64,000 nt of DNA from the NCBI RefSeq assembly GCF_002127325.2, contig NC_035435.2, positions 12,779,893-12,843,892 of the forward strand, written 5' to 3'. The notes beneath the pieces are model-generated. The model had not been told where the DNA came from, ran no database searches, and saw only the letters and a program-made list of their open reading frames with translations. The DNA comes from Helianthus annuus. Lineage: Eukaryota; Streptophyta; Magnoliopsida; Asterales; Asteraceae. A program made the translations under genes and the position numbers. This document shows, in pieces, positions 15,393-49,500 of this stretch (position 1 is the stretch's first letter; each line of letters begins with the position of its first letter).

Positions 15393-15846
15393 TGTTGGTG
15401 CATGTTTGTGACAACAACTTAGATTTGGTCTTTGGATATATTGTAATTAGTTAAACGATAAACAGTTAGCGGGTTTAGCTTTGTAATAGTGAATTAAGAG
15501 TGATTGGGCCAAACCAAACCCACATATGGGGAGTGGTTTGCGAAATGGGCCTTGCCCATGACCTAGCCCATATGCAAAGCTTTGTCCTATATAAACAAAG
15601 CTTAGCATTAGGGTTTAGGTTAAACTTCTAATCACCTTAATCATCTTGGAGAGAATTCGTGAAAGACAAAGGCTTGGACGAATTTGGAGATCTTGATTGA
15701 TTGTAATCGTTTGAAGATAATTAATAAAGATCGGGTTTAAAGTGATTCTTGTTCTACTCGTTTTCGTGAAATCTGATCTAGGGGATTCCGCACTCTAGGT
15801 TAGATCGACGATTCTGTTATGATCCGCACGGTTACGGGGACCTACA
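15393..15846 (+). repeat. element C 5' LTR
   Basis: 454 bp, TG...CA. TATA box TATATAAA at 15588-15595. The first 97 bp of U3 appear identical in element D, apart from three or so changes confined to this 5' copy. Confidence 0.94.
15588..15595 (+). promoter_or_regulatory. TATA box of element C 5' LTR
   Basis: TATATAAA in TCCTATATAAACAAAGC, about 190 bp into the LTR. It is conserved in the 3' LTR (about 20661-20668). Confidence 0.7.
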
Positions 15847-15848
15847 AT

Positions 15849-15860
15849 TGGTATCAGAGC
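15849..15860 (+). other. primer-binding site of element C
   Basis: TGGTATCAGAGC, 2 nt after the LTR; initiator tRNA-Met type. Confidence 0.9.
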
Positions 15861-16674
15861 GTTCGGCTCTTAATTTGCTTGGTTCAGAATCGTTTTCTGC
15901 AGAAAATCGACGTTTTTGGGAGTTTTTGGAGGCTGTGTTCGTGTTCTGCTGCTGTTTTCGGATAAACTGCTTGGATTTCGGACCATTACTGATAGAAATC
16001 TTGCATTTCGGATCAATTTCGGACCAGAAACAAGCATTTTGGACTAGAAACAGGCAATTTCGGATAGAAATCAAGCAATTTCGGACCATTTCGGATTCAC
16101 TGGCTTGCATTTCGGATCAAAACCTGCATTTCAGACTAGATTGACCTGCATTTCGGATCCACAGGCTAGCATTACGGATTAGACTGTTGATTTTGGATCA
16201 GTAGGTGATTGATTTCGGACCAGAGTGTTCCATTTCGGATCTGACTAGTGCATTTCGGATAAAAAGGTGTTCATTTCGGATAATCATCACCATTTCGGAC
16301 CATTCCGGATAATCATCAACATTCCTGACCATTTCGGACCCATTTCGGACCTTTTCTGATCATTTCGGAAAAGGGGGGAATTTTTCTTAGCTTGTGTAAG
16401 AAAAATTTCACAGTTTCGCGTTTAGAAAACTATCCGTAACTCGTCACACGAAACCGTTTGCACCGTTGGAATCCTTGGATTTTTAGGACAAAAAAAAAAT
16501 AAAAATTTGCACATGACTAAATTGAACGAACTCTTAAGGATGGTAATCTCGAAAAAGGTTTTCGACATTATATATCAATGGAATCGTAATCTCGAGACGA
16601 ATCTAACGGTATAATTTGGTAAAAACAGATTCCGGACAAAATTTGTACGGTTTTACCAGTCTGCTTACGTTAAA
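15861..16674 (+). repeat. element C leader with CATTTCGGAT repeats and a gag-like upstream ORF
   Basis: From about 15965 to 16380 the leader is an array of diverged CATTTCGGATC/GACCATTTCGGA words. Downstream, 33 bp (16511-16543) duplicates the gag start region (16682-16714) almost exactly. Its ATG (16513) opens a 33-codon frame with the same first residues as gag (MTKLNELLRM), ending at TAA near 16612-16614. This small frame precedes the main gag start at 16675. Confidence 0.75.
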
Positions 16675-19600
16675 ATGTCGAACATGACTAAATTGAACGA
16701 ACTCTTAAGGATGGAGCATGAGGTTGGCACAACCAACAAACCGCCTAAGATGATGAAGGTGGAGAACTACTTGACATGGAAGGATAGGTTTCAATCCTTC
16801 ATTGAATATCAGGACACTCGCATGTGGATCTGTATTGTTGAAGGGTACACAAACCCTACACATGACTTTGAAGGCAGACCTCGTGTGACAGCTTATGTGA
16901 ACATGCAGGAGAATGATAAGAAGATGTATGAGGCTGAAAAGAGAGCCTTGGCTGCTATCAAGATGTCCCTACCTGATAGCATCAAACATACCTTTAAGAA
17001 GGACACTACCTCAAAGGAAATATGGGATGCACTAGAGAAGAGATATGAGGGAAATCCTGATGTCAAGAAGAACAAAGTTGATCTACTGAAGAAACAGTTT
17101 GCTGTGTTCAAGTATATGAAGAATGAGTCACTTGAGGACATCATCACTCGATACTATCATCTGATGTCAGAATTGGATAATTATGATGTAGACTGCTATA
17201 CTGACATAGAGAAAAATGACAAGCTGCTTGATGCTCTACCTGCTAAATGGGATATCTACACTCTCATGATCAAGGGAGAAGCAGATTATGACACAAAAGA
17301 ACTAGAAGAAGTTGTTGGAAAGCTAAGAGCTTATGAGCTCAGTATGAAGAAGAAGGACACTGGATATGATCAGGTTCAAGATCCAGGGATCTACAATGGG
17401 CTTACATCTTCTTCATCACATGATGCTTCTAGCGACTCTGCTACTGCATTTCTTTCATGTGACAGTGAGCAGGTTACAGTGAATGAGGATGGTGATGTGT
17501 GTTTTGTGGCTGCTTCAGGAGGATCAACAGGAGCCAAAAGAACATCAGTTGTTAAGCAGAGTAGTAGTGTAAAGTCGATGCCTATGAGCGTGAAGTCTGC
17601 TGAAGAACATCTTGCTCTACTTGCTTCGTTTGTTGCGTCATATGAGAACTACATTCAGGGGAAGATATCTGATCCTGCAACTTTAGATGAAGATTATGAT
17701 TAGATTGACCCTGATGATCTAGAAGAGATGGATTTACAATGGCAGATGGCCATGATTTCAAGACGTGTGAAGAGGTTCATGAACAGAACTGGAAGGAAGT
17801 TTGTAGGAAAGAGTGTTGGTTTTGACAAGGCCAAAGTCAGGTGCTTTAACTGTCAGAGTTATGGTCACTTCGCTAGGGAATGTCAGAAACAAAAGCATGA
17901 GACTTCGAGTCAGAGTTCAAACAACAGAAATGCATCAAACAACTCTAACTCAAGGGCATTGATCTCTACTGCAAGAGAAGGTTCATATGACTGGAGTGTT
18001 CACTTGGAAAATGATGAGAATGTCACTCAGGCATTTATGGCAGAGATTGTGCCAGTTGATGAGGGTGAAGCTACAGTAGATGATGCTAAAGTTGAGAAAA
18101 AGGGTGAAGCTGAGGTAGATAAGGCCGATCAAGCAACAGATGCTGAAAAAGAAAAGCCGCAGTCTGAGCATGAAAGGGAAGATGAAGAGAAAGATGAAAT
18201 CATCAAAAGACTGGGAGCTCAACTTGCTGCTCTTATGGCCAACTCAGAAAAATCGGCAGGAGAGGTAAGTAACTCTACTACTTCTGTTTGTTTAAAGTGT
18301 CGTGAATTACAGGGTGAAGTTGACAGGTTGTTAACTCAAAACAAAAGTCTGGTGAGCGAAAAGTCTAACGTAAAAGAATCAAATTTCTTTGCTAAAAGAA
18401 ATGAGTCATCATATTTGAAAAAGATAAAAGGTTATGAAGCTGAAATTGAAGTTTTAACCTGCAAATTAAACGAAAAACTTCAAGTCATAGACTTAGCTCA
18501 TGACATGATGGCTAAGAAAACAAAAGAGATTTCTGAAAAATGCAAAGAGTTGTCAGATGCACAACTCAAAATTGTTGACCTTGAAAAGAAATTAGGTTAA
18601 TTCAGGGATTCTACTTTTGTTATGAAACACGTGATGGGTGGGTTAAAGAAGAGTAATGACAAGAAGACTGTGGGATTCCAGGGCTTTAATGAAGTCCCAC
18701 CTCCTCTTAGTCATAACTATTCTTTCTTACCTGATGAAGATGAGTTCACAGACTTTTTGTCAACATCACCAAGTAGTTTCACATCCAGTCAAGGTGATTT
18801 GTTTGTAGATAATGATGCTAAGAAGGAAAATAACAGCAAACCTGTTTTGAAAAAGAAAAATACACCTTCTAAAAACAAAAATCAAACTCTTGTTAAAAAG
18901 GTTAATTTTGTTCAAGGAAGTGACATGAAAAACGAAACAGCTGTTATAGAAAATGAATCAAATGTAGAGTTTGCTAAAAACAAACACCAAGAAAAATCTG
19001 AAACTAAGCAAACTGAACCTTCTAAGGCATCATCATCAAAACCAGAATCTAGTTCAAAGGCTTCAGGTGAGAAGTCTTCGAAAAAGAGATCGTGCTTCAA
19101 ATGTCACACAAAGGGACATGTAGCTAGCTGCTGTCCTAACAAAAAGATTGACGCACAAGTTAGTGAGAAACAAAGAGGGAAGTCACCAGAGAAGAGTGGT
19201 GATAAAAAGGAGAGACAAGCTAACTCTCCAAAGAAATCTGCTCTAAAGCAACAACAGGGTGTTGCTGGTGGGGTAGATAAGGCTGAAAAAGGAACTCCTC
19301 AAGTTCCTCATTTTCAAAGAAATCAACCTAGATTTCAGCCTGAATCTACATCAGGCAGATATGAGAGACCTAGAAGTAGTTCACCAAGAATGAACAACCA
19401 AAATTCAAATAATTTCAGAAGTCAAGGTCAATATCAAAATCGATACCAAAATAATGGTGGTCGAACTTTTTATAACAATGGCTTTAGGAATTACAACAAT
19501 CAAGCTTATTGGAATCAAAACTCAAGGTTTCAAAGGTCACAGAGTCCAAACACATATAGGAACCCTCAGGACCAGAGACCTTATGGAAATCAGACCCCAT

Positions 19601-19725
19601 TTCCATCAACAAGTCCAAGATCCAAGACTCCAGTTAGGAGTGATGGATATTGGATGGATGTTTAAGTAGTTGGTGAATCTGGACGACCCAAGACCATCAA
19701 GGCTTGGGTCCCCCACTCTAACTAA
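16675..19725 (+). pseudogene. gag: element C gag (copia), three internal stops
   Basis: Copia capsid/nucleocapsid precursor in a single frame of about 1017 codons. The UBN2-type capsid region (LLKKQFAVFKYMKNES, DKLLDALPAKWDIYT) is in the first 230 codons. A first CCHC knuckle CFNCQSYGHFAREC follows, then acidic and coiled-coil sequence. A second knuckle CFKCHTKGHVASCC precedes a Gln/Asn/Arg-rich tail ending in WVPHSN. In-frame stops are TAG 17701-17703 (elements B and D read on through the matching region; B has Gln), TAA 18598-18600 and TAA 19663-19665. Otherwise the frame is unbroken, so these are recent nonsense changes. The next in-frame TAA (19723-19725) also exists in D and is probably the natural gag end. 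Confidence 0.88.
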
Positions 19726-19740
19726 TCTTTTGGTTGGTGT

Positions 19741-20405
19741 GTGCAGGAGCTGCTAAGGAGGATTATCAACTTATGGTATGTTGATAGTGGCTGCTCCAGG
19801 CACATGACGGGGGATGCGAGGTTGTTTTCTGAATTCGAAGAATATGATGGTGGACATGTTAATTTTGCTAGTGCTAAAGGTGGTAGGATTACTGGACGAG
19901 GAAAAGTGACGAATGGGAAGATCACGTTGGACAAAGTGAACTATGTTGAGCAGCTGAAACACAATCTAATGAGCGTGTCACAAGTCTGCGACAAGGGTCA
20001 CTCGGTCCACTTTACAAATACTGAAGCATTGGTGTTGAAACCGGGTTTGGTCATTCCGGACGATTGGATAGTGATGCGTGCACCAAGGAAAAATGACACT
20101 TATGTCATGGACATGGGTGCCAAGGATCCAACTACTACGGTGGCATGTTTACTGTCAAAAGCATCTGAAGCTGAATCAATGTTGTGGCACAGGCGCATGG
20201 CCCATATTCACTACCGCAAAATGAACTACATTATTAAAAATGAGCTAGTGAAAGGGGTTCCATTGCTGAGGTTTCAAGTGGAAGATAAATGTCTTCCATG
20301 TCAAAAGGGAAAACAACACAAGAAACCTCATAAGTCTAAAACAGTAAATTCCATTAATGCCCCTTATGAACTACTTCACATGGATCTATTCGGTCCAGTG
20401 AACGT
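19741..20405 (+). pseudogene. pol: element C pol fragment: protease and integrase N-terminus
   Basis: The aspartic protease motif WYVDSGCSRHMTG is present (Asp codon at 19792). The GAG-pre-integrase zinc region follows, with LWHRRMAHIHYRKMNYI and CLPCQKGKQHKKPHKS. The integrase core begins with PYELLHMDLFGPV, whose Asp would be the first catalytic residue, and the sequence then jumps at about 20406 to non-coding 3' sequence and the polypurine tract. The integrase DDE remainder, RT and RNase H are absent. The reading frame matches that of gag across the TAA at 19723. Not able to support its own transposition. Confidence 0.9.
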
Positions 20406-20455
20406 AAGGAGCATTGAGATTCTGAAGACTGAAGTTTCCTTTGCGAGCTATTGTC

Positions 20456-20465
20456 AGGGGGAGTT
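20456..20465 (+). other. polypurine tract of element C
   Basis: AGGGGGAGTT directly before the 3' LTR; plus-strand primer site. The same text precedes the 3' LTR of element D. Confidence 0.85.
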
Positions 20466-20918
20466 TGTTGGTGCATGTTTGTGACAACAGCTTAGATTTG
20501 GTCTTTGGATATCTTGTAATTAGTTAAACGATAAACAGTTAGCGGGTTTAGCTTTGTAATAGTGAATTAAGAGTGATTGGGCCAAACCAAACCCACATAT
20601 GGGGAGTGGTTTGCGAAATGGGCCTTGCCCATGACCTAGCCCATATGCAAAGCTTTGTCCTATATAAACAAAGCTTAGCATTAGGGTTTAGGTTAATCTT
20701 CTAATCACCTTAATCATCTTGGAGAGAATTCGTGAAAGACAAAGGCTTGGACGAATTTGGAGATCTTGATTGATTGTAATCGTTTGAAGATAATCAATAA
20801 AGATCGGGTTTAAAGTGATTCTTGTTCTACTCGTTTTCGTGAAATCTGATCTAGGGATTCCGCACTCTAGGTTAGATCGACGATTCTGTTACGATCCGCA
20901 CGGTTACAGGGACCTACA
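20466..20918 (+). repeat. element C 3' LTR
   Basis: 453 bp. It differs from the 5' LTR by a handful of substitutions and a 1-bp indel in a G run. It is followed by the target duplication TTTCG. Confidence 0.94.
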
Positions 20919-33646: not shown

Positions 33647-34723
33647 TGTGACACCTGTGTCACTTCAACCATCAAACAAACGCCAAACCAATGAAATATT
33701 GTATTTCATACTTTGGACTTGTATAAATATGTGTATCGTTTGCACATATCAACTCTTGTTCGATTTCAAGCTCTACATCGCTTTCTAGGGAATTATACGC
33801 AAACTGGTGCGTAAACGTACTCAGTTTAATGCGACAAATACTCCGGAACATCAACATATACTCAACATACCTTAAATAACCTTTACATAACTTAGAAATA
33901 AGTTTTGAAGGCTTTGGTATGGCAAAAATAAGTTAATTCGCTTACAGGGACTAAACTTGACAAACTGCGAAAGTATGTCAATTTGAACTGTAACAAACAT
34001 TCCGGAACATGTCCATAAGTTAAACATACCATAAATATCCTTTACATAGCTTAGAAATAGGCTTTGAGGGGTTTGGTATGCTAAAACAAACTTTTGGATC
34101 ATTTAGGGACTAAAAGTGTCAAAAAGTGCACAAGTTTGCACTTTCGCGCATAACTTATGTTTTGAATACATCCGGACACCCAAAAATTTATGTAAGCATC
34201 CTAATATTATGCCTTAGTGTTTGGCATGAGAAAAATCCATTCGTCGCGCATTTTGGATCGTTTTTCGCGCTTATGCGCATTCCGTCGTAATTAACCGAAC
34301 ATCGCATTCGTACGGCCAAACGAACCAACATCCGACATATTTTTGAGCATATTTCATGTCCACAATGTTTAGGCATCATTTTAGGGCCTTAAAGTTGGCT
34401 TTACGGGCCTTAGAAGTGTCGGAAATGGCTTAAATATGCAACATGGACTAAAACTGTAAATTCTGAAACTTGTTGCCTGATCTGCACCTCCAGGCGGCCC
34501 GCCTGGGTTTTGTGCACATCCTGAAGCGGGCCGCATGGCCCCTTCAGTAACAGAATTTTGTCTTTCTTGCACAACTTGGCCTTTCAAACAACCCAAAGGG
34601 CAATGCCCTTTCACCAAATCAGGAGCCAAGGGTCACATTAAGCCACCACAACTTTGTGACAAGTGTACGGCTTGGATCGTGGCACGATATTCAAGAAACG
34701 ATCCTAACGGCTCTACTTTTCCC

Positions 34724-34730
34724 ATAAATA
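34724..34730 (+). promoter_or_regulatory. TATA-like box of element F 5' LTR
   Basis: CCCATAAATACCCCCC. The 3' LTR copy reads CCTATAAATACCCCCC (about 47641), the better match to TATAAATA, so the 5' copy has probably lost a T. Confidence 0.6.
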
Positions 34731-35785
34731 CCCCCCTTTGATGTAAAACCCACACAAATCTGATCAAAATGCTCTAAGTTGATGCCATTGCTTCATACCC
34801 GAGCTCTTTGATCTAGATTAGCATTCGGGGACCCTCCGTAAGTATTCTTTCGTTCTTTTATTCGCTTTTCGAGTCCGAAAGTCAACGTTTTGTTGACTTT
34901 CTGCATTGACCAGCCTATGGTCAACACGAAGTTCATGGAACTTCATAACGTGAGCGTGATCACGATGGTTATAGTCCGTAGTGACTATACCTACTGATTA
35001 CCACGTTATCTAGGCTCAGTGACGAGTCGTAGTTTCGGCCAAAATGTGCATTCTTGCATATTTTGTAACCAAACTACTCGTGAGCATCAAAGCCGTTTGT
35101 TTTGGTGCCAAACCTGTTTTCTAAACTTAGTTAAGCATGTTCTAACATGCTTAGCTCGTCACTTTTAGATTAGTGCATATATAGGGTCGTAAGGTAAGCG
35201 ATCTAAACCATCACTTATACTTTCGAACCCGACCCATTTGGTCGATCATTAGGATCCGACCAAACACATTAGGTGACCATAGCTATAACCTTCCGAGGTT
35301 ATGCCTTGTGGTCACGATGTTAGGCGTTCCAAACGCGTTCTACGCGAACGACGCGTTAAGGTAGCATAAGCTACCTAAACGGGTCATAATGGGTCGCAAG
35401 CACTTAGGTTAGGTTTACGAGTCTCCATACTCGTTTGGTTTACGAACCCGCATACTATCCGATCCTTCCGATTTTGGTCCGGTATACTAATATAGCTACC
35501 TACTAGGTGCCGTTTGATATCCCGTGATCTCTAGCATTATGTGATTATTACACAAGGAATTCAAAGCAATCTCAGGTGAGTACATTGAACCCCTCTTTTA
35601 CTGTTTTCTAAACTGTTTTGGGGTGAAACACATGTGCCTATCTGTTACATTCATGCTTTCCATGTTTTCACATCATATGCCTGCTATGTTGTTAGTACAT
35701 TATAGTACACGATTTCATTACATTTCATGCTATGTATGCCCATTGTGTGCGTACTTAGTACATTGTTTTACATTACATTCCTGTT

Positions 35786-35965
35786 GCATATGTTTACTCA
35801 GCATATGGACACATTGATTTACATGAACATTTCTGCTGCATATGTTTACTCAGCATATGGGCACATTGATTTACATGAACATTTCTGCTGCATATGTTTA
35901 CTCAGCATATGGGCACATTGATTTACATGAACATTTCGGCTTCGTATGTTTACTTAGCATACTTA
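35786..35965 (+). repeat. 52-bp tandem repeat, about 3.4 copies (F 5' LTR)
   Basis: Units start at 35786, 35838, 35890 and 35942 with GCATATGTTTACTCAGCATA, each followed by CACATTGATTTACATGAAC. The last unit is partial and diverged. Apparent peptides here come from the repeat. Confidence 0.92.
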
Positions 35966-37200
35966 GTACAATTGTGTACATCACATGCCTTCATTTTGTT
36001 ATGACATTTGGTTTGTTTAACATGGGATAATGCATTCATTAACATTGATCACGCCGTTCGTTAGTAGGTAGTGGTACCATAGGAATTGACAACTCCCGTT
36101 CCTGAAATCCTGGGTTTGATAGGATTGTAAGGAATGACCGAATTCGATATACATAACTTAGATAAACCTTTAATTTGTTTAAGGGTTTATCGCCACAGTC
36201 TCAAGGCTTGGATGTATGCATATTTCACAATACCGCATAAATGTTAATATCAATAGAGCATGCATTTTTCCACAGAACATAACGTTGATTTAAACCACGT
36301 TTTACTTCAACGACTTGTTTTGTGCATTTTACATATGGTTTAAGTTGATACATTTCGCTTACCATACAAGATATATTTTGGGTACACATTACATTATCTA
36401 TATTGAACATAAACATTTTGACATTGATACACATACTTGGTGGTTTACATTGAACATAGACATTTCGATATGGTTTACACAATAACACTTGACACTTGGT
36501 TTATACATGAACAATTAACATGGTGGTTGGTTTGGGTAAATGATTAGCGTAACGTGGCGTATGTAATATGATACAAACATGGTGGATACGCCGCTGGTAC
36601 TTCCTATATATAAATGTTTGTATAATATTATGTATCGTAGCGTTATCTAAGTCATTTCAGTTTAGACATATTACATTTTACACAAATAACATACTCTTCA
36701 CAAGACATTATTTTTACAAACAACTTATCTCATTCAACTCATTTTACTTGGTTACTCGTTTAACCTTACACTTATTTATACATATCATCTGATCTTATCG
36801 TTTTTCAAATGATTTACAAGACAAAGCAAATTACAAGGTTCATGACTAAACATTTTCTCAAACATAAGTCATGAATTCCGTTTTCACAAAACCAATGTAT
36901 CTCACAGGCATTTTTATGCTGACGTACCTATTTTCACATGTGTTTTCAGGAGATGATGCATAGGACTTATCAAGATATACTTAGGCGGACCTGTGCCTTA
37001 GTGACTTAAAACGAGACAAGAACTAGTTAATTTATGTTATGTACCCTTTGGTTCTTGTTTAAACAATGTAAACTTTCATGTTTGATCAATGAAACGAAAC
37101 TTCAATTGCGATGGATTTGAAACAATTAATTCTGTTACAACACTCCCCGACGTTTCCGCCACGTTTTGTATGTTCCACGTGGTCGGGTGTGACAGAAAAG

Positions 37201-37214
37201 TTGGTATCAGAGCC
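37201..37214 (+). other. primer-binding site of element F
   Basis: TTGGTATCAGAGCC, 6 nt after the LTR end; initiator tRNA-Met type. Confidence 0.88.
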
Positions 37215-37822
37215 AATGGTTATAGGGAATTAGGTTATTAGTAATGCTTTGACCTAGTCTATAACCTTCCTAGGACCCTAACGCGAGTTTACTTGCGTTT
37301 AGTCATAAAACAATACCGTCACCTATCCTTAGGCGACGACCACAACAAGAACATAAATTTCAAAACCGCTTCGAAAACTAATCATCTGTTCTAGGATGAT
37401 TGATTACTAGGTTTTGAACCCTCTATTGTAAGGTTTTGAACCCTCTGTTATAAGGTTTTGAACCCCTTTGAATTTTCAAAACTCTCGTCAAAGTTTTGGG
37501 TCCTAAATAGTGTGAACACGTACAAACTGGAAGAGTGAATGCCTGTACCCTGGGTTTTCTGTCTAAGGTTAGAGTGTTCGTACAAATCCACATAATCGGA
37601 CCAGTCACTCTTACCTGGGAACTCTTGGGGTGAGTGTCCACTTATAGGCTAAAGCATGTCTTCGCGACACATTAATATGACCTGCTTACTTTGATTAGAC
37701 ACCGTCTCATTTGTTTGCCTTAGGTAACAAACAAATGATCGCAATTTCTATGCGTTGTCATCTTGTTTTATTTACCGATAACATTTCATTTATTTCCTCC
37801 TATATCCTTCATTTCCTCCAGA
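37215..37822 (+). other. element F untranslated leader
   Basis: Non-coding. It contains three close copies of AAGGTTTTGAACCC at about 37409-37465. Confidence 0.65.
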
Positions 37823-38404
37823 ATGTCTCTCCATCGCAACGATGCGCAGATATCCGAGCAGACTGCCAAATTTGCCCAGCGGATAGGCGAAGTAATTCTG
37901 AAGACTGTTGAATTAGGCTTTGCCATGTCTCGTCTCAACAATGAAGCCACTCAAGGGCCACCAAAGGAAGCGGAAGTCAAGCCTGCACCACCAGCCAAGA
38001 AACCAATCAAGGAATCAAAGACCATGGATGAACAGACTGGATCCCCTAAGAGGTCAAGGAAGCGAAAGGCTTCTCAGAACTTCGCCGTGGTCACTCGCAA
38101 TGCTTGAGACATCCCCAACCAACCAACTCAACCCCCTGCTAGGAAGCCATACAACGGAACTGCACCCTTGTGCAACCAATGTAGCCTCCATCATCATGTC
38201 AATGTAAAGTGCCGCAAATGCCAAACTTGTGGACTTATAGGCCATACAGCAAGAGTTTGCACAGCCGCAGCTGCACCAAACCAAGCTGGCAACAATCCCG
38301 CTCAAGGTCGTTTCCTACCAGGTTCTTGTTTCAACTGTGGCGAGATGGGTCATTTCCAAAGAAATTGCCCAAAGTTTACTAAGGCAAATCTAACCCACGG
38401 ATGA
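37823..38404 (+). pseudogene. gag: element F shortened gag with zinc knuckles, one in-frame stop
   Basis: A 193-codon frame beginning MSLHRNDAQISEQT. It has a basic Pro/Lys-rich middle (KPAPPAKKPIKESK is the style), then CRKCQTCGLIGHTARVC and a clear CCHC knuckle CFNCGEMGHFQRNC near the end. An in-frame TGA at 38105-38107 splits it; TGA could come from CGA by one transition. The central capsid (Retrotrans_gag) domain of gypsy gag is absent, so even without the stop it would mainly be an RNA-binding fragment. It is the only coding trace in F. Confidence 0.75.
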
Positions 38405-38917
38405 ACAATTGGCTGTTTAGAAGATGCTGTTGTCTTATGCTTTTGTTTCTTCTATTTTACTTGTTATGTAAAACAATCTGTCCCGTTCATAAATAAAAGT
38501 TGTTGTTCGCAATTCTCAGATACAAGTATGGTTACAAGTATGAATGGCATTCCCCTATAATGCCTACGTTAAGGAACTATGATCCTTGCAAACTACTTTC
38601 GTGAAAATTCTTCCCATTTTTTTGCGTTTACTCATGACTTTCTTGGTAATTTCTAAGTACTCGTTTTATTCTTAGAAACGAAGTACAGGAAATAAAGTGA
38701 CGTTATGAGTAATCGTGCTGCCATACCTTTGAATCCTTGTTTAGATAACCAAGGATATCTTCATACCCATTACGTTCTGATTTCTTCAAACATACATAGT
38801 TTCAAAAATATTTATCCTCATACATAGATTTAACTTTCAAACTCTGCTCCATATGTTGCCATGGCATATAGAGCATCTCAACCTCATAAGCATTTTACTT
38901 CGTGTTTTGACTTAAAC
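38405..38917 (+). other. element F interior, non-coding, left of D
   Basis: No pol similarity found. It ends at the ACGTC target duplication of element D (38918-38922). Confidence 0.6.
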
Positions 38918-38922
38918 ACGTC

Positions 38923-39413
38923 TGTAGGTCCCCTTGAGTCTATGGATCGTCACAGAATCGTCTTTCCAATCAAGAGTGCGGAATCCTCTTGATCAGAATC
39001 AGCAGAAAACGTGTAGGAAACAGAAACAGCAAGACACTTTCAATCAGGGTTTCTATTGATTATCAATCAAACAAGAATTACAATCAATCTAAACCCTAAC
39101 CCTCTCAATTTCGTCCAAGACTTAATCTCTCACGAAATCTCTCTCACACAAACTGTTTTGGCTGATTAACCTTAACCCTAATGTCTAACCTTGTTTATAT
39201 AACACAAGGTTCACAACTGGGCTAGGTTAAAGACTCCTGGGCTGCGAATTGGACAGGCCCAATTCGCCCCCATCACCCAATTCCTTGGGTTTAGTTAGCC
39301 CAAACATAACAACTAACTATTACAAAGCTAAACCCGCTAACTGTTTATCGTTTAACTAATTACAAGATATCCAAAGACCAAATCTAAGCTGTTGTCACAA
39401 ACATGCACCAACA
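38923..39413 (-). repeat. element D 3' LTR (left, complete)
   Basis: 491 bp from TGTAGGTCC to CACCAACA as written. The minus-strand TATA (TATATAAA) is at 39194-39201. It contains GGGC-(14 nt)-GCCC at about 39236-39257, the same small inverted repeat found at the turn of the right-hand palindrome. It differs from the right-hand R-U5 arms by many substitutions and indels. Confidence 0.92.
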
Positions 39414-39423
39414 AACTCCCCCT
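39414..39423 (-). other. polypurine tract of element D
   Basis: AGGGGGAGTT on the minus strand, next to the 3' LTR, as in element C. Confidence 0.85.
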
Positions 39424-41356
39424 TGACAATAGCTTCATAAAAACTTTGTCTTGAGTCAAAACTTTGTCTTCGGTCTTCTTGCAATCTTCAAGTAGTCTTG
39501 CACTGTCTTTGGTCTTTGGATAGCTTCAGCTTTAATAGCTTCTGCCAGCAACAGACTCCCCCTAAGCTGATGCATCCAATCACCAAATCTTCAACACGTT
39601 AGCGTTTGAGTAAACTCCAGTTTAGCATTTGCACAGCAATCTTCAACTCTTCAATCTTGTCTGCAATTTAGAAAGGAGGTTCTACCATGCAGCCAATCAA
39701 ACTCTCATCTTCACACGTCACAGCAACTTCTCAGCAACAAACCGCTTCAATCTGTATACTATAAAACAAACATCTCGAGAAAACATAAGAATTTTTCAAC
39801 AAAAGTTAAATAAATTATTATTTTTCAAGAGATTAGTTAAACTGTATCACAGATTAAGCTTTTTCAACTTATCACCAACACGCAAAACTTTTTGTTCAAC
39901 ACACAAGGACCTGCCTGATTGAAAATTTTGAACTCACTTTCTAACACCGTCTCCCCCTATCAGTAACAATTCCTCCAAGAATAACAGTTTTCCGTACGTT
40001 AAGAATTTCAAACAGAAAAAGACACTATTTTTGGATTTTTATATTTTTCTGAAAGCAAGTAAATAAACAAAAACAATAAACACTCTATTTTTGTGAGAAT
40101 CACTGGTAAGAAGATCATATCAGCACAAGCAAACTGTTTCACACAATCATGTAATTCTTTATTCAATTTTTCGTGAAAAGCAGTTCAAGACGATTACCAG
40201 TATGTTTGTCCACTTAAACAAAATGCATGAACATTTCAAGTACCATTACCGTATGATACATTAAGGTAATTTTATTTTCTGAAATACGAGCGTGTCCCAC
40301 AAAAGGATATACCCCCACGATCAAGGTATGCACAAAGATTCATCGTAGTAGGTGAGTATACTGATGTCATACTTTAAGATATTATGACTGTGTCTAGATC
40401 TGCATAAAATCTGTTTTATCATGTTTTAAATGCTTAACTATGAACACCCAAATAAATATTAATCAAATCCTGGAAATAAAAACAGCACACTCTATCATGC
40501 AAGTATCTTCCCTACCACATATTTCACAAGTCCAATCCTGAGTTCTGAAATCTTAACTGGGAATAGGTTGAGAAGAGAAAAGAATAGATCTTAGTAGAGA
40601 TGGTATAATATACAGATCAAATGAGATTTTCTCAGTTTGATATAGGTTTATTGGGTTTCTTTTGGGCACTAGAGGGCCTCTTTCGGGTGTATTAGATCTA
40701 TAGCGCGACAACGTACAGCTAGGTCAGCATGTATCTGGATGCAGCAGAAGCTGTCGTTGCCTAGCACCTCCAGGTCAGCATATATCTGGATGCAGCAGAG
40801 GAGGTACACGACTTTGTTTAGAGAAGATTTCAGAATCAGATCAAAATTGTGTGTATCGGGAAATATACAGACATTCAAATAGAAATGAGCTAATTCCAAG
40901 TGACTATCTTTCCTGGGGTCATGTACAATTTTAGTTCTAACAGACATACAGCCAAGATATCCCTAGATAAAACAACAGTATAAAGACCCAAAACTTCAGA
41001 TTTTGGCAATCTATCAACGCAAGAATTAAGGTCATTAAACCATACACCACTAATGTGTTCCCCACTCATATTCAGTTCATTTATGTTTATATCACATTGG
41101 TAAGTTGATTATTTCATGCTTTTTGCCTACTGGTACATCATATAATGAAGCTGCTATCACACTTAAGCAATTTAATTTCAAGTTCAGTGTGACAGTCTAA
41201 CTTGCTGATGTACTATCATTTCTTCTTTTCACACAGTGATAACTCATTTTTGATTTTCTATTTTTTTTTATGTTTTTGATTTTTCAATTTTTTTTTTGTT
41301 TTTGATTTTTTAAGAAAAGCAGTAAACTATTTACAAAAATTCTTATGAAAAACCAG
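39424..41356 (-). other. element D 3' non-coding region
   Basis: About 1.9 kb with no coding. It contains a 30-bp direct repeat (AGGTCAGCATGTATCTGGAT and on) at 40721-40750 and 40772-40801, and T-rich runs at 41250-41310. Confidence 0.7.
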
Positions 41357-41460
41357 TTATTCAGGATTCCTCATCCCGTTGAGTTCGACTAAGTGTTCAA
41401 AGCGAGCCCTGTCAAATGCTTTAGTATAAAGATCTGCCAGGTTATCCTCTGTGTCGACTC
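41357..41460 (-). pseudogene. pol: element D pol C-terminal remnant (RNase H tail)
   Basis: On the minus strand it reads DNLADLYTKAFDRARFEH and then GMRNPE followed by TAA. This is the hallmark C-terminal end of copia RNase H (NLADLxTKA...F..L...GM). Upstream of it, everything from the protease start to here is deleted, so D keeps the two ends of the polyprotein and nothing between. Confidence 0.85.
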
Positions 41461-41601
41461 AACACTTTGAACCACAAATTAAATCATTTAATATATATCA
41501 ATCATCAATCTCACACCCCCCCTTCATGTGCCTAGAGCAGCCACTATCAACATAAGTTGATAATCCTCCTTAGCAGCTCCTGCACACACTAACTTAAGAA
41601 A
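41461..41601 (-). pseudogene. pol: element D protease start, truncated
   Basis: On the minus strand GCAGGAGCTGCTAAGGAGGA and TTGATAGTGGCTGCTCTAGG match the protease start in element C, but 5 nt (GGTAT) before the Asp-Ser-Gly codons are lost. The deletion junction to the RNase H tail lies around 41461-41520. Confidence 0.75.
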
Positions 41602-43578
41602 TTAGTTAGATTGGGGGACCCAAGCCTTAATGGTCTTGGGTCGTCCAAATTCACCAACCACTGGAACATCCATCCAATATCCATTACTCCTAACTGGAGT
41701 CTTGGATCTCAGACCTGTTGATGGAAATGGGTTTTGATTTCCACTAGGTCTTTGGTCCTGAGGTTTCCTATATACATTTGGACAATTTGACCTTTGGAAA
41801 TTTTGATTTTCAAACCTTGAATTTTGATTCCAAGAAGCATTATTGTTGTAATTTCTGAAGCCATTGTTATAAAAATTTCGACCACCATTATGCTGGTATC
41901 GATTGTGATATTGACTTTGACCTCTGAAATTATTTGAATTAAAATTGTTCATTTTAGGTGAACTGCTTCTAGGTCTCTGATATCTGCTTGGTGGAGATCT
42001 AGGCTGAAATCTAGGTTGATTTCTTTGAAAACGAGGAACTTGTGGAGTTCCTTTTTCAGCCTTATCCACACCAACAGCAACTGTCTCTGGTTGCTTAGGA
42101 GCAGATTGCTTTGGAGAGTTGGACTCTCTCTCCTGCTTATCACCACTTTTCTCTGGTGACTTCTCTCTCTTCCTCTCATTCACTTGTGCTTCATTCTTTT
42201 TGTTAGGACAACAGCTAGCTACATGTCCTTTGGTGTGACATTTGAAGCACGATCTCTTTTTCGAAAACTTCTTATTGGAAGTCTTTGAACTGGATTCAGA
42301 TTTCTTTGTCTGACAACTTGATTTCACATTATTGCTTGACCCAACCTGATTCCCGTCAATAACTTCGTCAACTTTTTGCTTACCTTTCTTCAAAGGACAA
42401 CAACTCGCCACGTGCCCTTTGTTGTGACATTTAAAGCAGGATATTTTCTCTTTGTTTGATCCCTTTTTAAATGTGTTGGTCTTGTTGTCTTCAGTATCCT
42501 CATCCAATTTATGAGGTGTACTGTTAGACCCAACAGATTCTTTCAAAGAAACTGGACTACTTGGCAAGTCCACAGCTATCGGATCCACTACATGTGCAGT
42601 GGTTACAAAATCAGTTAGCTCATCTTCAGTTGGTAAAAATGAGTAGTCAGAAGATGAAGCTTTAGTAAACCCCACCCCTGTTTTATCATTACTTCTTTTT
42701 AAACCTTTTTGAATTTGAGTTCTGACTAACGAAGAATTCCCAAAATTATGTAACTTCCCCTGAAGTTCTACAATTTTGGCTTGTGCATCAGCCAATTCTG
42801 TGCACTTTTCTGAAAGCTCGTTATTCGTTTCTTTCACAGTTTCACGAGCCAAATCAATGACCTGTAACAGTTCATTGACTTTGCTTGTTAAACTGCTAAT
42901 TTCCTGTTCATTTGATTTGAGTTTTTCCAAACAGTTTGACTCTCGTTTAATCAAAAGAACATTTAACTCTTTTCGGTTTTCCAAATCAGCCAACAAAATT
43001 TTGTTTTGTTCCGATAGTCTGTCAACTTCACCCTGTAGTTCAGTGCAATTATGACACGTATGACTTACAGGTTCTGGTGTTACCTTCACCTCTGTTGTAA
43101 GTTCATTCACACCATCCATGCACTTTGAAACTTCTGCAGCCTTCTTCTCAACCTTCTGTTCAAGAGCTTTCTTCGTCTCTTCTTTCACAGCAACTGCTTC
43201 TTCATCTAACGCACGATCTCCTACACTCTGTCTTGATGAATTCTGATAGCGTTTTCGTAAAGCTTCCCACAGATCATAAGAAGTCCCATAGTGCTTGATG
43301 GTATGTTTAATTCCCTCAGGCAGGGACATCTTTATCACTGCTAAAGCTTTCTTCTCAGCATCAACCATTAGTTTCTCAGATTCATCCATCTTGTCATAAG
43401 AAATCACTTTTGTCCTTCCTTCAACACGACGTGTAGGAGCCATGTATCCATCTATAATACAATACCACATTCTGGTATCTTCGCTCTTCACAACCAATTC
43501 AAACTCCTCCTTCCAGACAGCATATTCGTTAACATTTGTAAGCTTTGGCCACTTCTCGACATTGTCCACTTTAATCAT
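41602..43578 (-). CDS. gag: element D gag, intact 658-codon frame
   Basis: Capsid/nucleocapsid-like protein of a copia element, uninterrupted. Residues 1-115 hold the W-rich capsid N-terminus (VWKEEFELVVKSEDTRMW, IKMSLPEGIKHTI, LWEALRKRYQ). Compared with C about 200 capsid residues after that are missing, so the capsid domain is shortened. Residues about 150-300 are coiled-coil-like with a CHNCTELQGEVDRL segment. Two CCHC knuckles follow, CFKCHNKGHVASCC and CFKCHTKGHVASCC; C has one at this place. The Asn/Arg/Gln-rich tail ends in WVPQSN. It starts MIKVDNVEKW at 43578, about 1 kb after the primer-binding site. Probably RNA-binding; capsid assembly is doubtful. Confidence 0.85.
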   Translation of the reverse strand: MIKVDNVEKWPKLTNVNEYAVWKEEFELVVKSEDTRMWYCIIDGYMAPTRRVEGRTKVISYDKMDESEKLMVDAEKKALAVIKMSLPEGIKHTIKHYGTSYDLWEALRKRYQNSSRQSVGDRALDEEAVAVKEETKKALEQKVEKKAAEVSKCMDGVNELTTEVKVTPEPVSHTCHNCTELQGEVDRLSEQNKILLADLENRKELNVLLIKRESNCLEKLKSNEQEISSLTSKVNELLQVIDLARETVKETNNELSEKCTELADAQAKIVELQGKLHNFGNSSLVRTQIQKGLKRSNDKTGVGFTKASSSDYSFLPTEDELTDFVTTAHVVDPIAVDLPSSPVSLKESVGSNSTPHKLDEDTEDNKTNTFKKGSNKEKISCFKCHNKGHVASCCPLKKGKQKVDEVIDGNQVGSSNNVKSSCQTKKSESSSKTSNKKFSKKRSCFKCHTKGHVASCCPNKKNEAQVNERKREKSPEKSGDKQERESNSPKQSAPKQPETVAVGVDKAEKGTPQVPRFQRNQPRFQPRSPPSRYQRPRSSSPKMNNFNSNNFRGQSQYHNRYQHNGGRNFYNNGFRNYNNNASWNQNSRFENQNFQRSNCPNVYRKPQDQRPSGNQNPFPSTGLRSKTPVRSNGYWMDVPVVGEFGRPKTIKAWVPQSN

Positions 43579-44562
43579 CTTTAAACACGTTTTACCGTAA
43601 CCGTACTGATAAAACCGTACAATATTTTTCCGAAAATTGTTTTTACCAAATTATACCTTTAGAATCGTCTCGAAAAGACGAATCCAATATTTTTTTTTTT
43701 TGTCCTAAAAATCACACGAATCTAACGGCGCAAACGGTTCTGTCAAACGAGTTACGGATCAATTTCTATTTGCAAAACACCGAAAAATTTTCGACGCTTG
43801 CCAACTGAAATTCCACCACTTAAATTTGCTACTAAATTCGCTGGTTATGGCTTAATTTCGCTGGCCAGTGGTTAAATTCGCTGATCAGTTTAAATTTGCT
43901 GGTTAATTCGCTGAACTGTTAAATTTGCTGGTCAAATTCGCTGCCAATTTCGCTCAGATTAATTTCGCCGGGTAACCAGTTCGCTATTATAACGACTGGC
44001 AAAATCGCTGAAACCGTGATAATTTCGCTGTGGAAACTAACACGATTACCAAAGTCGCCTTTGGATTTTAAATTCGCCGATCACCGTGAAATTATGTCCC
44101 AAATTCGCTGGTAAATATGCTGAATCACTTAAATTCGCTGGTCAGTCAGCAAAGTTAATCAATTTCGCCAAATCAATATGGAAATCCAATCTTTCCAAAA
44201 TTTTGAAGATCTTATCTCCTCTCCAACACAAATCTGCACAATCAAAACAGCCAAATATCAGTGATTTTCGAAAATTTTAACAAGAAACAGAACGAAGAAC
44301 GCGAAGAACACGAAGAACAGTCTTCGAATCTTCAAGTGTTTCCAGCCAAAATCCTTCAAACAGTCAACCAGAAACTATCCTGAAAACCTGCAAATCAGCA
44401 AACAAACAAACCAAAAGATCAAAATAGCCAAAATTTTCGAAAATTTTATCAAACCCACAAGAATTTCGAAAATTTTTAAAAACCCTAATTTTTCAGGTTT
44501 CACCAATTTTCGAAATTTTTTCTGCAAATCACAATTCTGAACCGAGCAATCAAGAGCCTAAC
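43579..44562 (-). repeat. element D leader with TTCGCTGG repeats
   Basis: Between about 43810 and 44165 the plus-strand text is an array of diverged AAATTCGCTGGT/AATTTCGCTG words (sense strand CCAGCGAATTT). The leaders of B and C also carry arrays built around TTTCG. Confidence 0.75.
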
Positions 44563-44574
44563 GCTCTGATACCA
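44563..44574 (-). other. primer-binding site of element D
   Basis: TGGTATCAGAGC on the minus strand, 2 nt from the start of the right-hand LTR arm at 44577. Confidence 0.9.
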
Positions 44575-44844
44575 ATTGTAGGTCCCCTTGAGTCTTATGG
44601 ATCGTCACAGAATCGTCTTTCCAATCAAGAGTGCGGAATCCTCTTGATCAGAATCAGCAGAAAACGTGTAGGAAACAGAATTCACTTTCAACTGGGTTTC
44701 TATTGATTATCAAACTTGCGTATTACAATCAACCAAACCCTAATTCGTCTAAGACTATGTCTCTCACGAAATTCCTCTCTCACACAACTGTTTTGGCTGA
44801 TTGACTGATTTACTGATCAACCTAAACCCTAAAGCCTAACCTTG

Positions 44845-44852
44845 TTTATATA
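44845..44852 (-). promoter_or_regulatory. TATA box in left arm of the palindrome
   Basis: TATATAAA on the minus strand, pointing into element D, in the position of a normal 5' LTR promoter but without its upstream U3 sequence. Confidence 0.6.
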
Positions 44853-44948
44853 ACACAAGGTTTACTATTTGGGCTAGGTCAAGACTCTTGGGCCTGTCCA
44901 ATTCGCAGCCCAAGAGTCTTGACCTAGCCCAAATAGTAAACCTTGTGT

Positions 44949-44956
44949 TATATAAA
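44949..44956 (+). promoter_or_regulatory. TATA box in right arm, pointing out of element D
   Basis: TATATAAA on the plus strand, the mirror copy of 44845-44852. It would start transcripts running right, into element F. Confidence 0.55.
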
Positions 44957-45803
44957 CAAGGTTAGGCTTTAGGGTTTAGGTTGATCAGTAAATCAGTCAA
45001 TCAGCCAAAACAGTTGTGTGAGAGAGGAATTTCGTGAGAGACATAGTCTTAGACGAATTAGGGTTTGGTTGATTGTAATACGCAAGTTTGATAATCAATA
45101 GAAACCCAGTTGAAAGTGAATTCTGTTTCCTACACGTTTTCTGCTGATTCTGATCAAGAGGATTCCGCACTCTTGATTGGAAAGACGATTCTGTGACGAT
45201 CCATAAGACTCAAGGGGACCTACAACGTCCAGTGCAAGGTTTCGAAACATCTTCAACTTCTAAAAATCCATATGGGATCTTTTATCCCCATAATTAGACC
45301 CTTGTGGATGATTATCATACAAATCAGAGTCCTTAATTGGATTCCTCATGTACCAAAATTTGATCATTTCGGTTCCTTAGAATCGAAATCGAATTTTCTC
45401 TTTAAGATCTTTCTATCTTTATAGTTAGATTCTTAGAAATATTTAAAGCACCAATCAAAATCCACTGATTGGATACCTGGTGTGCTTTGAATACATGTGC
45501 ACAGTTGGCAGAACAAATTAACAGAATGATAACAAATCAAGTTAAACAATCTTTGTGGTTATATGACTATGTGTTTATGCATCTTGTGTTTTCTATTATG
45601 CATTTTGTGTTTTTATATACTCTGGATATTCGTTATCCAAATCCTCGTGGAATCTTTCATATCTTCATATGAGGGATTCGTAGTAGGATATTCAAAAAGG
45701 TACTATCTTAAATCCTTAATGGACTTCTACGTTGTAGTTAAGTCCCTTAGATTATAAAGTACTATTCCAAGGTTTAAGGACAATATGTGTCGATTTAGTT
45801 GAA

Positions 45804-46110
45804 GAGATTGGTTCGACAATCTAGTTAAAGACATCCTACATCGATGTAGTTAAATACTCCCCGTGGGTAGTTTAGTTAAATAGATCATTCGTTGATCTAA
45901 GTTAAAGAGATTGGTTCAACAATCTAGTTGAATATATCATGCGTTGATATAGTTAAAAAGGCCCTCGGGTGGTCTAGTTAAAGAGATCCTACGTCGATCT
46001 AAGTTAAATAGATTGGTTCGACAATCTAGTTAAAGGCATCCTACGTTGATGTAGTTAAATATTTCTCTTGGGTAGTTTAGCTGAAGAGATTATTCGTTTG
46101 ATATTTTTCC
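45804..46110 (+). repeat. about 103-bp higher-order tandem repeat, three copies
   Basis: GATTGGTTCGACAATCTAGT recurs at about 45806, 45909 and 46011. Each unit is made of about four 26-bp sub-units ending in TAGTTAAA (GATGTAGTTAAATA, GGTAGTTTAGTTAAA, GATCTAAGTTAAA). Diverged but regular. Confidence 0.85.
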
Positions 46111-46528
46111 CATACGCATTATGAAATGAACTGTGCGGACTGTGCAAGGAAGTACGTAATTATGGAGGCCTACATAATTATGGAATTTAGTGCACAGAAA
46201 CCACAAGAAGTTTTGTCATGTGTTAAGACCTGCAGTGACAAGAGTAATGATACGGGAGAAGTCTTGGATTTTGACCAATGTCATTTATCCTTACACTCCC
46301 CAATTCTGATTTCAAAGCACACACAAGTTTCCTATGATAACTCTTCACGGGAAACGTTCTCCTGCCGTAGTTCGAAACTCCATGTTTTGTTACTACAAGG
46401 ACTTCACTTTGTGGGTTGAAATTTTCGCTAAGGATCCTAACATGGCCCAGAGTTTTACCTAAGGGTTCAATGGATTTGTCTGAAAGCGAAACCGTCACAG
46501 CTGTCTTCACAAGTTTCCTCTAAAAACT

Positions 46529-46547
46529 AAATTTCGGGACGAAATTT
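46529..46547 (+). promoter_or_regulatory. conserved hairpin before the F polypurine tract
   Basis: AAATTTCG-GGA-CGAAATTT, an 8-bp stem with 3-nt loop about 8 nt before AGTAGGGGAGAC. Element E has the same motif at 50861-50877. Confidence 0.6.
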
Positions 46548-46555
46548 CCTATAGT

Positions 46556-46564
46556 AGGGGAGAC
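46556..46564 (+). other. polypurine tract of element F
   Basis: AGGGGAGAC directly before the 3' LTR. Confidence 0.8.
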
Positions 46565-49500
46565 TGTGACACCTGTGTCACTTCAACCATCAAACAAACA
46601 CCAAACCAATGAAATATTGTATTTCATACTTTGTACTTGTATAAATATGTGTATCGTTTGCACATATCAACTCTTGTTCGATTTCAAGCTCTACATCGCT
46701 TTCTGGGGAATTATACGCAAACTGGTGCGTAAACGTACTCAGTTTAATGCGACAAATACTCCAGAACAACAACATATACTCAACATACCTTAAATAACCT
46801 TTACATAACTTAGAAATAAGTTTTGAAGGCTTTGGTATGGCAAAAACAAGTTAATTCGCTTACAGGGACTAAACTTGACAAACTGCGAAAGTATGCCAAT
46901 TTGAACTGTAACAAACATTCTGGAACATGTCCATAAGTTAAACATACCATAAATATCCTTTACATAGCTTAGAAATAGGCTTTGAGGGGTTTGGTATGCT
47001 AAAACAAACTTTTGGATCATTTAGGGACTAAAAGTGTCAAAAAGTGCACAAGTTTGCACTTTCGCGCATAACTTACGTTCTGAATACATCCGGACACCCA
47101 AAAATTTATGTAAGCATCCTAATATTATGCTTTAGTGTTTGGCATGAGAAAAATCCATTCGTCGCGCATTTTGGATCGTTTTTCGCGCTTATGCGCATTC
47201 CGTCGTAATTAACCGAACATCGCATTCGTACGGCTAAACGAACCAACATCTAACATATTTTTGAGCATGTTTCATGTCCACAATGTTTAGGCATCATTTT
47301 AGGGCCTTAAAGTTGGCTTTACGGGCCTTAGAAGTGTCGGAAATGGCTTAAATATGCAACAGGGACTAAAACTATAAATTCTGAAACTTGTTGCCTGATC
47401 TGCACCTCCAGGCGGCCCGCCTGGGTTTTGTGCACATCCTGAAGCGGGCCGCATGTCCCCTTCAGTAACAGAATTTTGTCTTTCTTGCACAACTTGGCCT
47501 TTCAAACAACCCAAAGGGCAATGCCCTTTCACCAAATCAGGAGCCAAGGGTCACATTAAGCCACCACAACTTTGTGACAAGTGTACGGCTTGGATCGTGG
47601 CACGATATTCAAGAAACGATCCTAATGGCTCTACTTTTCCTATAAATACCCCCCTCCCCTTTGATGTAAAACCCACACAAATCTGATCAAAATGCTCTAA
47701 GTTGATGCCATTGCTTCATACCTGAGCTCTTTGATCTAGATTAGCATTCGGGGACCCTCCGTAAGTATTCTTTCGTTCTTTTATTCGCTTTTCGAGTCCG
47801 AAAGTCAACGTTTTGTTGACTTTCTGCATTGACCAGCCTATGGTCAACACGAAGTTCATGGAACTTCATTACGTGAGCGTGATCACGATGGTTATAGTCC
47901 GTAGTGACTATACCTACTGATTACCAAGTTATCTAGGCTCAGTGACGAGTCGTAGTTTCGGCCAAAATGTGCATTCTTGCATATTTTGTAACCAAACTAC
48001 TCGTGAGCATCAAAGCCGTTTGTTTTGGTGCCAAACCTGTTTTCTAAACTTAGTTAAGCATGTTCTAACATGCTTAGCTCGTCACTTTTAGATTAGTGCA
48101 TATATAGGGTCGTAAGGTAAGCGATCCAAACCATCGCTTATACTTTCGAACCCGACCCATTTGGTCGATCATTAGGATCTGACCAAACACATTAGGTGAC
48201 CATAGCTATAACCTTCCGAGGTTATGCCTTGTGGTCACGATGTTAGGCGTTCCAAACGCGTTCTACGCGAACGACGCGTTAAGGTAGCATAAGCTACCTA
48301 AACAGGTCGTAATGGGTTGCAAGCACTTAGGTTAGGTTCCATTTTAGTATGTAGGCTTTGTTAAACCATATTACACGAGTCTCCATACTCGTTTGGTTTA
48401 CGAACCCGCATACTATCCGATCCTTCCGATTTTGGTCCGGTATATTAATATAGCTACCTACAATGTGTCGTTTGATATCCCGTGATCTCTAGCATTGTGT
48501 GATTATTACACAAGGAATTCAAAGCAATCTCAGGTGAGTACATTGAACCCCTCTTTTACTGTTTTCTAAACTGTTTTGGGGTGAAACACATGTGCCTATC
48601 TGTTACATTCATGCTTTCCATGTTTTCACATCATATGCCTGCTATGTTGTTAGTACATTATAGTACACGATTTCATTACATTTCATGCAATGTATGCCCA
48701 TTGTGTGCGTACTTAGTACATTGTTTTACATTACATTCCTGTTGCATATGTTTACTCAGCATATGGACACATTGATTTACATGAACATTTCTGCTGCATA
48801 TGTTTACTCAGCATATGGGCACATTGATTTACTTGAACATTTCTGCTGCATATGTTTACTCAGCATATGGGCACATTGATTTACATGAACATTTTTGCTT
48901 CGTATGTTTACTTAGCATACTTAGTACAATTGTTTACATCACATGCCTTCATTTTGTTATGACATTTGGTTTGTTTAACATGGGACAATGCATTCATTAA
49001 CATTGATCACGCCGTTCGTTAGTAGGTAGTGGTACCATAGGAATTGACAACTCCCATTCCTGAAATCCTGGGTTTGATAGGATTGTAAGGAATGACCGAA
49101 TTCGATATACATAACTTAGATAAACCTTTAATTTGTTTAAGGGTTTATCGCCACAGTCTCAAGGCTTGGATGTATGCATATTTCACAATACCGCATAAAT
49201 GTTAATATCAATAGAGCATGCATTTTTCCACAGAACATAACGTTGATTTAAACCACGTTTTACTTCAACGACTTGTTTTGTGCATTTTACATATGGTTTA
49301 AGTTGATACATTTCGCTTACCATACAAGATATATTTTGGGTACACATTACATTATCTACATTGAACATAAACATTTTGACATTGATACACATACTTGGTG
49401 GTTTACATTGAACATAGACATTTCGATATGGTTTACACAATAACACTTGACACTTGGTTTATACATGAACAATTAACATGGTGGTTGGTTTGGGTAAATG

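Follow-up and report, generated by a model that had tools for sequence, protein, structure and literature searches.

We describe a retrotransposon insertion, element D, that carries a U5 terminus at each of its two ends, the right end being a long palindrome, and that entered its target as a single event. We consider it quite probable that D goes back to a partial minus-strand DNA that primed its own copying, extended the copy into the end of its tRNA primer and, on a second cDNA of full length, took the role of plus-strand strong-stop DNA, the joint product then being integrated. D lies on the minus strand of the window (the whole stretch of 64,000 nucleotides analysed here, G000:C3:12779893-12843892, from a 3.01-Gb genome in 334 contigs), where it occupies 6,302 bp at positions 38923-45224 and is laid out as follows, in window coordinates:

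38918-38922, no strand: left target-site duplication ACGTC, present as a single copy in empty sites
38923-39413, minus strand: 3' LTR of D, 491 bp, termed subtype B here; closest genome copies 98% identical over 1-491
39416-39423, minus strand: terminal polypurine tract AGGGGGAG, followed by TT and then the LTR
41602-43578, minus strand: 658-aa open frame, gag-like, with a sub-threshold Retrotran_gag_2 match
44563-44574, minus strand: primer-binding site TGGTATCAGAGC, adjoining the AT spacer
44575-44576: AT spacer between primer-binding site and inner arm
44577-44893, minus strand: inner palindrome arm, comprising U5, R and part of U3, termed subtype A here and read as the copied strand
44888-44893, no strand: TTGGGC, which together with GCCCAA forms the 6-bp inverted repeat of the turn
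44894-44907, plus strand: 14-nt loop CTGTCCAATTCGCA, continuous with the outer arm in intact LTRs
44908-45224, plus strand: outer palindrome arm, interpreted as the original minus strand; its tRNA-primed U5 terminus, CCTACA, faces outward
44908-44913: GCCCAA, the other half of the turn repeat and the first letters of the outer arm
45225-45229, no strand: right target-site duplication ACGTC, present as a single copy in empty sites

On direct sequence comparison the two arms at the right end are reverse complements at 317 of 317 positions, with 14 nt between them; the window holds six inverted pairs of at least 100 nt, and the palindrome of D is the only one among them that unites full identity with a short loop. 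The left LTR runs on the plus strand from TGTAGG to CACCAACA, its outer end being the U5 terminus, and the join between inner arm and primer-binding site reads CCTACA-ATTGGTATCAGAGC, the same as in intact elements. We take TGGTATCAGAGC to be the complement of the 3' end of initiator tRNA-Met, CCA included. Besides the terminal tract, D has further AGGGGGAG copies about 150 and 545 bp upstream of its 3' LTR. The first-pass annotation had D start with TGTAGG and end with CCTACA between 5-bp ACGTC copies, and gave it a 317-bp arm that turns through a 14-nt loop and returns as an exact reverse complement; the borders read as claimed, and the arm coordinates (44577-44893 and 44908-45224) agree. Its "perfect 648-bp palindrome" is accurate for the arms and not for the loop, which is non-palindromic, and its turn at a small inverted repeat of the intact LTR stands with a correction of size, the words being the 6-bp TTGGGC/GCCCAA rather than the 4-bp GGGC/GCCC.

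With the flanks of D joined through a single ACGTC as a 400-base query, the target proved uninterrupted at all 40 places scored among 2,163 candidates seen, at 95-99% identity (38 cover query positions 1-400, one 1-398 and one 1-399). Read base by base, four of five empty sites carry ACGTC and the fifth ACATC. Everything between the two ACGTC copies is insertion, palindrome included, and D and its palindrome therefore entered as one event. The marks of integrase-mediated insertion, a short target duplication and ends at processed CA/TG, are both present. Intact copies carry two extra bases at these positions, AT after CA and TT before TG. The exact borders of D would thus be accounted for by the loss of two bases per end, in keeping with 3' processing as set out in the available part of Bousios et al. 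2010 (PMC2829016). Since the U3 end TGTTGG and the U5 end TGTAGG differ at only one base in six, acceptance of two U5 ends by the integrase is plausible. Together, the exact ends, the 5-bp duplication and the empty site bear out the earlier proposal that integrase joined the whole palindromic molecule to the genome by two U5 ends.

The orientation of the loop distinguishes original from copy. Read in sense, intact LTRs have the order TTGGGC-CTGTCCAATTCGCA-GCCCA(A/G); in D this native order runs on into the outer arm, and the inner side departs from the native letters beyond TTGGGC. Outside D, the loop occurs in 80 distinct 500-bp contexts, preceded by TTGGGC in 78 and followed by GCCCAA in 56, GCCCAG in 21, GCCCAT in two and GCCCTA in one. 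A join of loop to inner arm was found nowhere outside D among 126 fetched loci, some of them overlapping; since the pattern that brought in a portion of these loci itself contains the loop end and outer arm (the native join), they are a non-independent sample. Since it is the outer arm into which the loop runs on in intact LTRs, we read that arm as the original minus-strand DNA and the inner arm as its copy. In the replication of LTR elements the tRNA-primed 5' end of minus-strand DNA is the U5 terminus, and the loop orientation thus indicates that the turning strand began at the outer U5 terminus, as predicted for a self-priming strand that starts there. D displays marks expected of such a product: inverted arms, a loop that continues the U5-started strand and a 3'-terminal inverted repeat at the turn. 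The first-pass annotation had the opposite direction, with an LTR that starts at the primer-binding site, turns and returns as a copied U5; we keep its single two-U5 integration and its fold-back or strand switch during reverse transcription and reverse its direction, because the loop joins the outer arm in intact LTRs. Snap-back of a finished 5' LTR end is rejected, as it would leave the loop in the opposite orientation, and a simple nested inverted LTR is rejected on the identity of the arms and the position of the turn inside U3.

The arms and the left LTR belong to two different subtypes. Over their shared part they are identical at 278 of 313 positions (88.8%) with 39 gap columns in addition; aligned against the arms, the left LTR is missing 16 nt, has extra blocks of 10 and 7 nt, and shows smaller differences besides. 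Sister LTR pairs are identical at 96.9% or more in all 36 cases, a sample that leans towards alike pairs since each was picked because both LTRs matched a query. The nearest copies of the left LTR are LTRs at C14:35.45 Mb and C16:10580 (98%). Those of the arms are the element at C13:39.15-39.16 Mb (97.6% over 332 columns) and the copy at C13:148.39 Mb (99.3% over 298 bases); these are the best matches obtained, and an intact LTR identical to the arms was not found among them. A dedicated search for the parent LTR with a 26-base pattern, at most one mismatch being allowed, gave 101 places including D, from which 30 loci and 20 more regions were fetched; D aside, the best whole-arm match among them was about 89%, and the C13:39.15-39.16 Mb element stays nearest. 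In normal replication both LTRs of one cDNA derive from one minus strand. Given the two subtypes, the palindrome strand most likely crossed to another molecule, and two templates most likely took part in making D.

In light of these observations we propose a route whose steps of self-priming, tRNA copying, second transfer, co-packaging and trimming we infer from the product at one locus in one assembly. Minus-strand DNA, primed by tRNA on one RNA with a subtype A LTR, would have passed the first strand transfer into U3 and halted at GCCCAA, about 337 nt from the U5 end and about 20 nt beyond the edge of the arm. The halted 3' end would have folded back on TTGGGC across the 14-nt loop and primed on itself, whereupon synthesis would have proceeded through U3, R and U5 into the 3' end of the tRNA that had primed the strand, leaving primer-binding-site sequence at its new 3' terminus. 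Copying into the tRNA would thus furnish the very sequence needed for second transfer, and the junction of D is normal at this point. The hairpin strand could then have stood in for plus-strand strong-stop DNA. Its partner would have been a full-length minus-strand DNA reverse-transcribed from another RNA, one with a subtype B 3' LTR and a gag-only body, and annealing would have taken place at the complementary site that this DNA carried at its 3' end. Completion of both strands would yield a linear product with a U5 terminus at each end, which integrase would have trimmed to CA on both sides and joined to a target staggered by 5 bp, leaving ACGTC on either side.

The same letters would result if, in place of self-priming, one minus strand had switched to another at the 6-bp TTGGGC/GCCCAA repeat. 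In such a scheme the minus strand completing the 5' LTR on subtype-A plus-strand strong-stop DNA would have left its template at TTGGGC, annealed to GCCCAA of a second subtype-A minus strand and copied it to the U5 terminus. The loop orientation and the exact U5 end would follow from the same repeat, and template switching between co-packaged RNAs has been proposed for plant elements (PMC1950507). It would, however, need a plus strand of subtype A and minus strands of both subtypes, as well as a jump to an antiparallel strand at 6 bp, whereas self-priming needs only one fold with a 14-nt loop, and we regard it as unlikely.

It is very improbable that the palindrome formed after integration, by host repair or gene conversion that swapped the U3 half of the 5' LTR for an inverted copy of the other half. 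Fold-back repair events do occur in plant genomes, and scrambled LTR fragments without clean ends are present in this one (the C6:113530381 region, by eye), but the inverted copy would have needed to stop exactly at the border between LTR and duplication with ACGTC intact, and the difference in subtype between the arm and the other LTR would be left unexplained. Slightly harder still to credit is an assembly or sequencing artefact, in the form of a false inverted join or a hairpin read: long-read sequencing is known to produce perfect short palindromes as artefacts, but a false fold-back would run into the primer-binding site and body and hardly stop at an LTR terminus beside a second ACGTC, and the empty site is confirmed in other copies. 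Both later rearrangement and assembly artefact are rejected on the exact borders taken together with the empty site. Just as little credence goes to a scheme in which a truncated element cDNA and a free LTR fragment in inverted orientation were ligated before they integrated. The family does have LTRs joined head to head at what appears to be an unprocessed U5 end, ATTGTAGG, at loci on C15 and C4, but two independent truncations would have had to hit an inverted repeat at positions 14 nt from each other, in fragments identical over 317 bp.

For the self-primed turn, the TTGGGC/GCCCAA repeat would make folding possible and does not appear to mark a hotspot. When stop and loop were varied over one intact LTR, a terminal stem of 5 bp or more resulted in 59 of the 11,984 combinations and one of 6 bp or more in 28. 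The 37-nt nascent end is predicted to fold with its 3' end paired at -5.1 kcal/mol, which is not exceptional against shuffled sequences (z -1.2; 27 of 200 as good), and by stem energy this stop ranks only ninth of the 79 stops with a stem of at least 4 bp in one intact relative, in which the turn words allow 5 bp. A genome-wide pattern for the turn at TTGGGC/GCCCAA returned three places against six for the reversed control and brought up no second D-like turn, the two other places having no LTR match beyond 15 bases.

Ends like those of D appear to be rare, as judged from this turn pattern, from 56 LTR/primer-site junctions and from the scored candidates of a search with the whole palindrome. 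The 56 junctions comprise the first 20 places listed out of 1,228 exact matches and 36 from other loci, with that of D among the 56. An inverted copy upstream is seen in D alone; 50 of the other 55 are ordinary, and the remaining five lack TGTTGG at the expected distance and have no inverted copy. The whole palindrome was found at its own place only among the 40 scored of 2,888 candidates, a count that is a lower bound.

Judged by its reading frames and junctions, D is a gag-only, non-autonomous copia-type element that we place near the Sireviruses. Its 658-aa frame matches Retrotran_gag_2 in Pfam at E 3e-4 and 20.7 bits, under the curated cut-off of 27, and no other frame in D exceeds 97 aa; D itself has no pol frame. 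The 3' internal region is about 95-96.6% identical to its best-matching relatives of both size classes, taking the best matches, and does not tell the two classes apart, since both match at similar identity. In a relative with 5.66-kb spacing (L104) this region directly follows the gag-like frame, as in D, and a 4-kb piece of it holds one frame of at least 150 aa, which has no Pfam match. In a relative with 9.87-kb spacing (L103), a pol frame follows the gag-like frame with the integrase before the reverse transcriptase (rve 207-307, RVT_2 628-870), which is the Ty1/copia (Pseudoviridae) order.

With the Sireviruses, a copia genus, as characterized in the available part of Bousios et al. 2010 (PMC2829016), D shares the 5' junction CA/ATTGG-TATCAGAGC, of which that source counts only TATCAGAGC as primer-binding site, the AGGGGGAG octamer, which lies exactly 10 bp before the 3' LTR, and the presence of several such tracts, three lying in its 2.2-kb 3' internal region. 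It differs in its lack of pol and in the spacer before the 3' LTR: the same portion of that source reports an AT/TG attachment site in 20 elements, whereas D has TT/TG, as do the 3' LTRs of its aligned relatives. The CGG-CCG repeated LTR motif occurs there in only 13 elements (PMC2829016, available part). Because the AT/TG mark is missing and the three other marks compared are present, we call D Sirevirus-like only.

Unusual choices of end seem to be a recurrent trait of this family. At C15:89225146-89236220 (L033, L034) and C4:141471782-141478144 (L035, L036), an extra LTR is attached head to head on the U5 side; the join, ATTGTAGG, has the appearance of a U5 end that was not processed. The outer end of neither is an LTR end: it starts at TGTTGCTGACAG, which natively follows AGGGGGAG-TC, and looks like the end of DNA started from an upstream polypurine tract. 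The two loci are flanked by duplications of GGAAA (C15) and AATAT (C4), and the extra arm is identical to its partner at 646 of 647 positions in the former and at 92% over 653 columns in the latter. Three further copies, at C8:121186.5-121192.9 kb (L087, L088), C4:142814.3 kb (L077, L078) and C4:197447.7 kb (L082), have 5' ends at TGTTGCTGACAG after the upstream polypurine tract, 129-140 bp before the LTR, with duplications of ATAGT, AATGG and ATAGA, respectively; L082 resembles a solo-LTR derivative. A pattern for such an outer end gave 16 places genome-wide and none in the reversed control. All five loci read, four of the 16 places with borders plus the C15 locus, which the pattern misses, carry a 5-bp duplication (AATAT, AATGG, ATAGA, ATAGT, GGAAA). 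Furthermore, head-to-head U5 junctions with a gap of at most 30 nt number 12 genome-wide against none in the control, several with primer-binding-site letters in the gap, the C15 junction being the one read among them.

For Sireviruses, the available text of Bousios et al. 2010 (PMC2829016) argues that cDNA from the upstream tract is unable to insert, being without an attachment site, whereas the five loci here look inserted from that tract. In D's family, TC/TGTTGC comes after the upstream tract, and cDNA from that tract can apparently insert.

D resembles DIRS-type elements in that its terminal repeats are inverted. Those elements use a tyrosine recombinase and are not known to leave a target duplication, whereas the inversion in D would be an accident within a normal integrase-type family. 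Self-priming of minus-strand strong-stop DNA has been demonstrated with artificial HIV-1 substrates, depends on TAR (Guo et al. 1997, as cited there) and yields aberrant cDNA that nucleocapsid protein suppresses, according to the available part of PMC4668388. As in our model of D, the nascent minus strand folds, primes itself and gives an inverted repeat; the HIV-1 product, however, is described in that part as an aberrant species, whereas that of D appears to have been transferred, completed and integrated, with its turn in U3 after the first transfer. The complex insertions that Sabot and Schulman 2007 (PMC1950507) attribute to template switching in plants likewise involve aberrant reverse transcription of co-packaged RNAs and a 5-bp duplication round an abnormal element, but are direct, three-LTR structures with normal ends, in contrast to the inverted arm and two U5 ends of D. 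A search of the literature by title found no report of an integrated U5/U5 palindrome or of an upstream-tract end flanked by a duplication, and the available portion of PMC4468133 holds nothing on two U5 ends.

D may thus be a genomic fossil of self-priming carried through second-strand transfer and integration, in which the presence of two LTR subtypes reveals that the transfer was from one molecule to another. Should this hold, concerted integration of a plant element would require no more than a U5 terminus at both ends. Together with the five upstream-tract insertions, D would then show how aberrant cDNA intermediates can be recognized in genome assemblies. It also touches on the role of the extra Sirevirus polypurine tracts, a question raised in the available part of Bousios et al. 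2010 (PMC2829016). We lean towards the more general view that self-primed minus-strand DNA can replace plus-strand strong-stop DNA, cross to a co-packaged genome and integrate, that the integrase of this family joins U5 to U5 and ends from the upstream polypurine tract to U3 or U5, and that the genome keeps failed intermediates of reverse transcription in readable form.

Several minor observations concern the same genome. At C5:49541249-49542192 (L037), the 3' LTR is preceded by two extra tandem copies of the terminal polypurine tract with about 200 bp of U3, a pattern that slippage of the reverse transcriptase could produce. The C6:113530370-113531020 locus (L083), read by eye, combines a sense U3-to-R piece, an antisense piece from the TATA region to the U3 end and an antisense piece of primer site, U5 and R; it has no clean LTR end at either border and looks like captured cDNA fragments. 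Within the window, the host of D is a repeat pair at 33647-48971 spaced by about 12.92 kb (about 6.6 kb once D is subtracted), each repeat copy containing 52-bp tandem repeats. A second repeat pair, spaced by 5.07 kb at 15393-20765 and in inverse orientation, matches the U3 end of D at 96-98% over 103-113 nt and is probably another member of its family.
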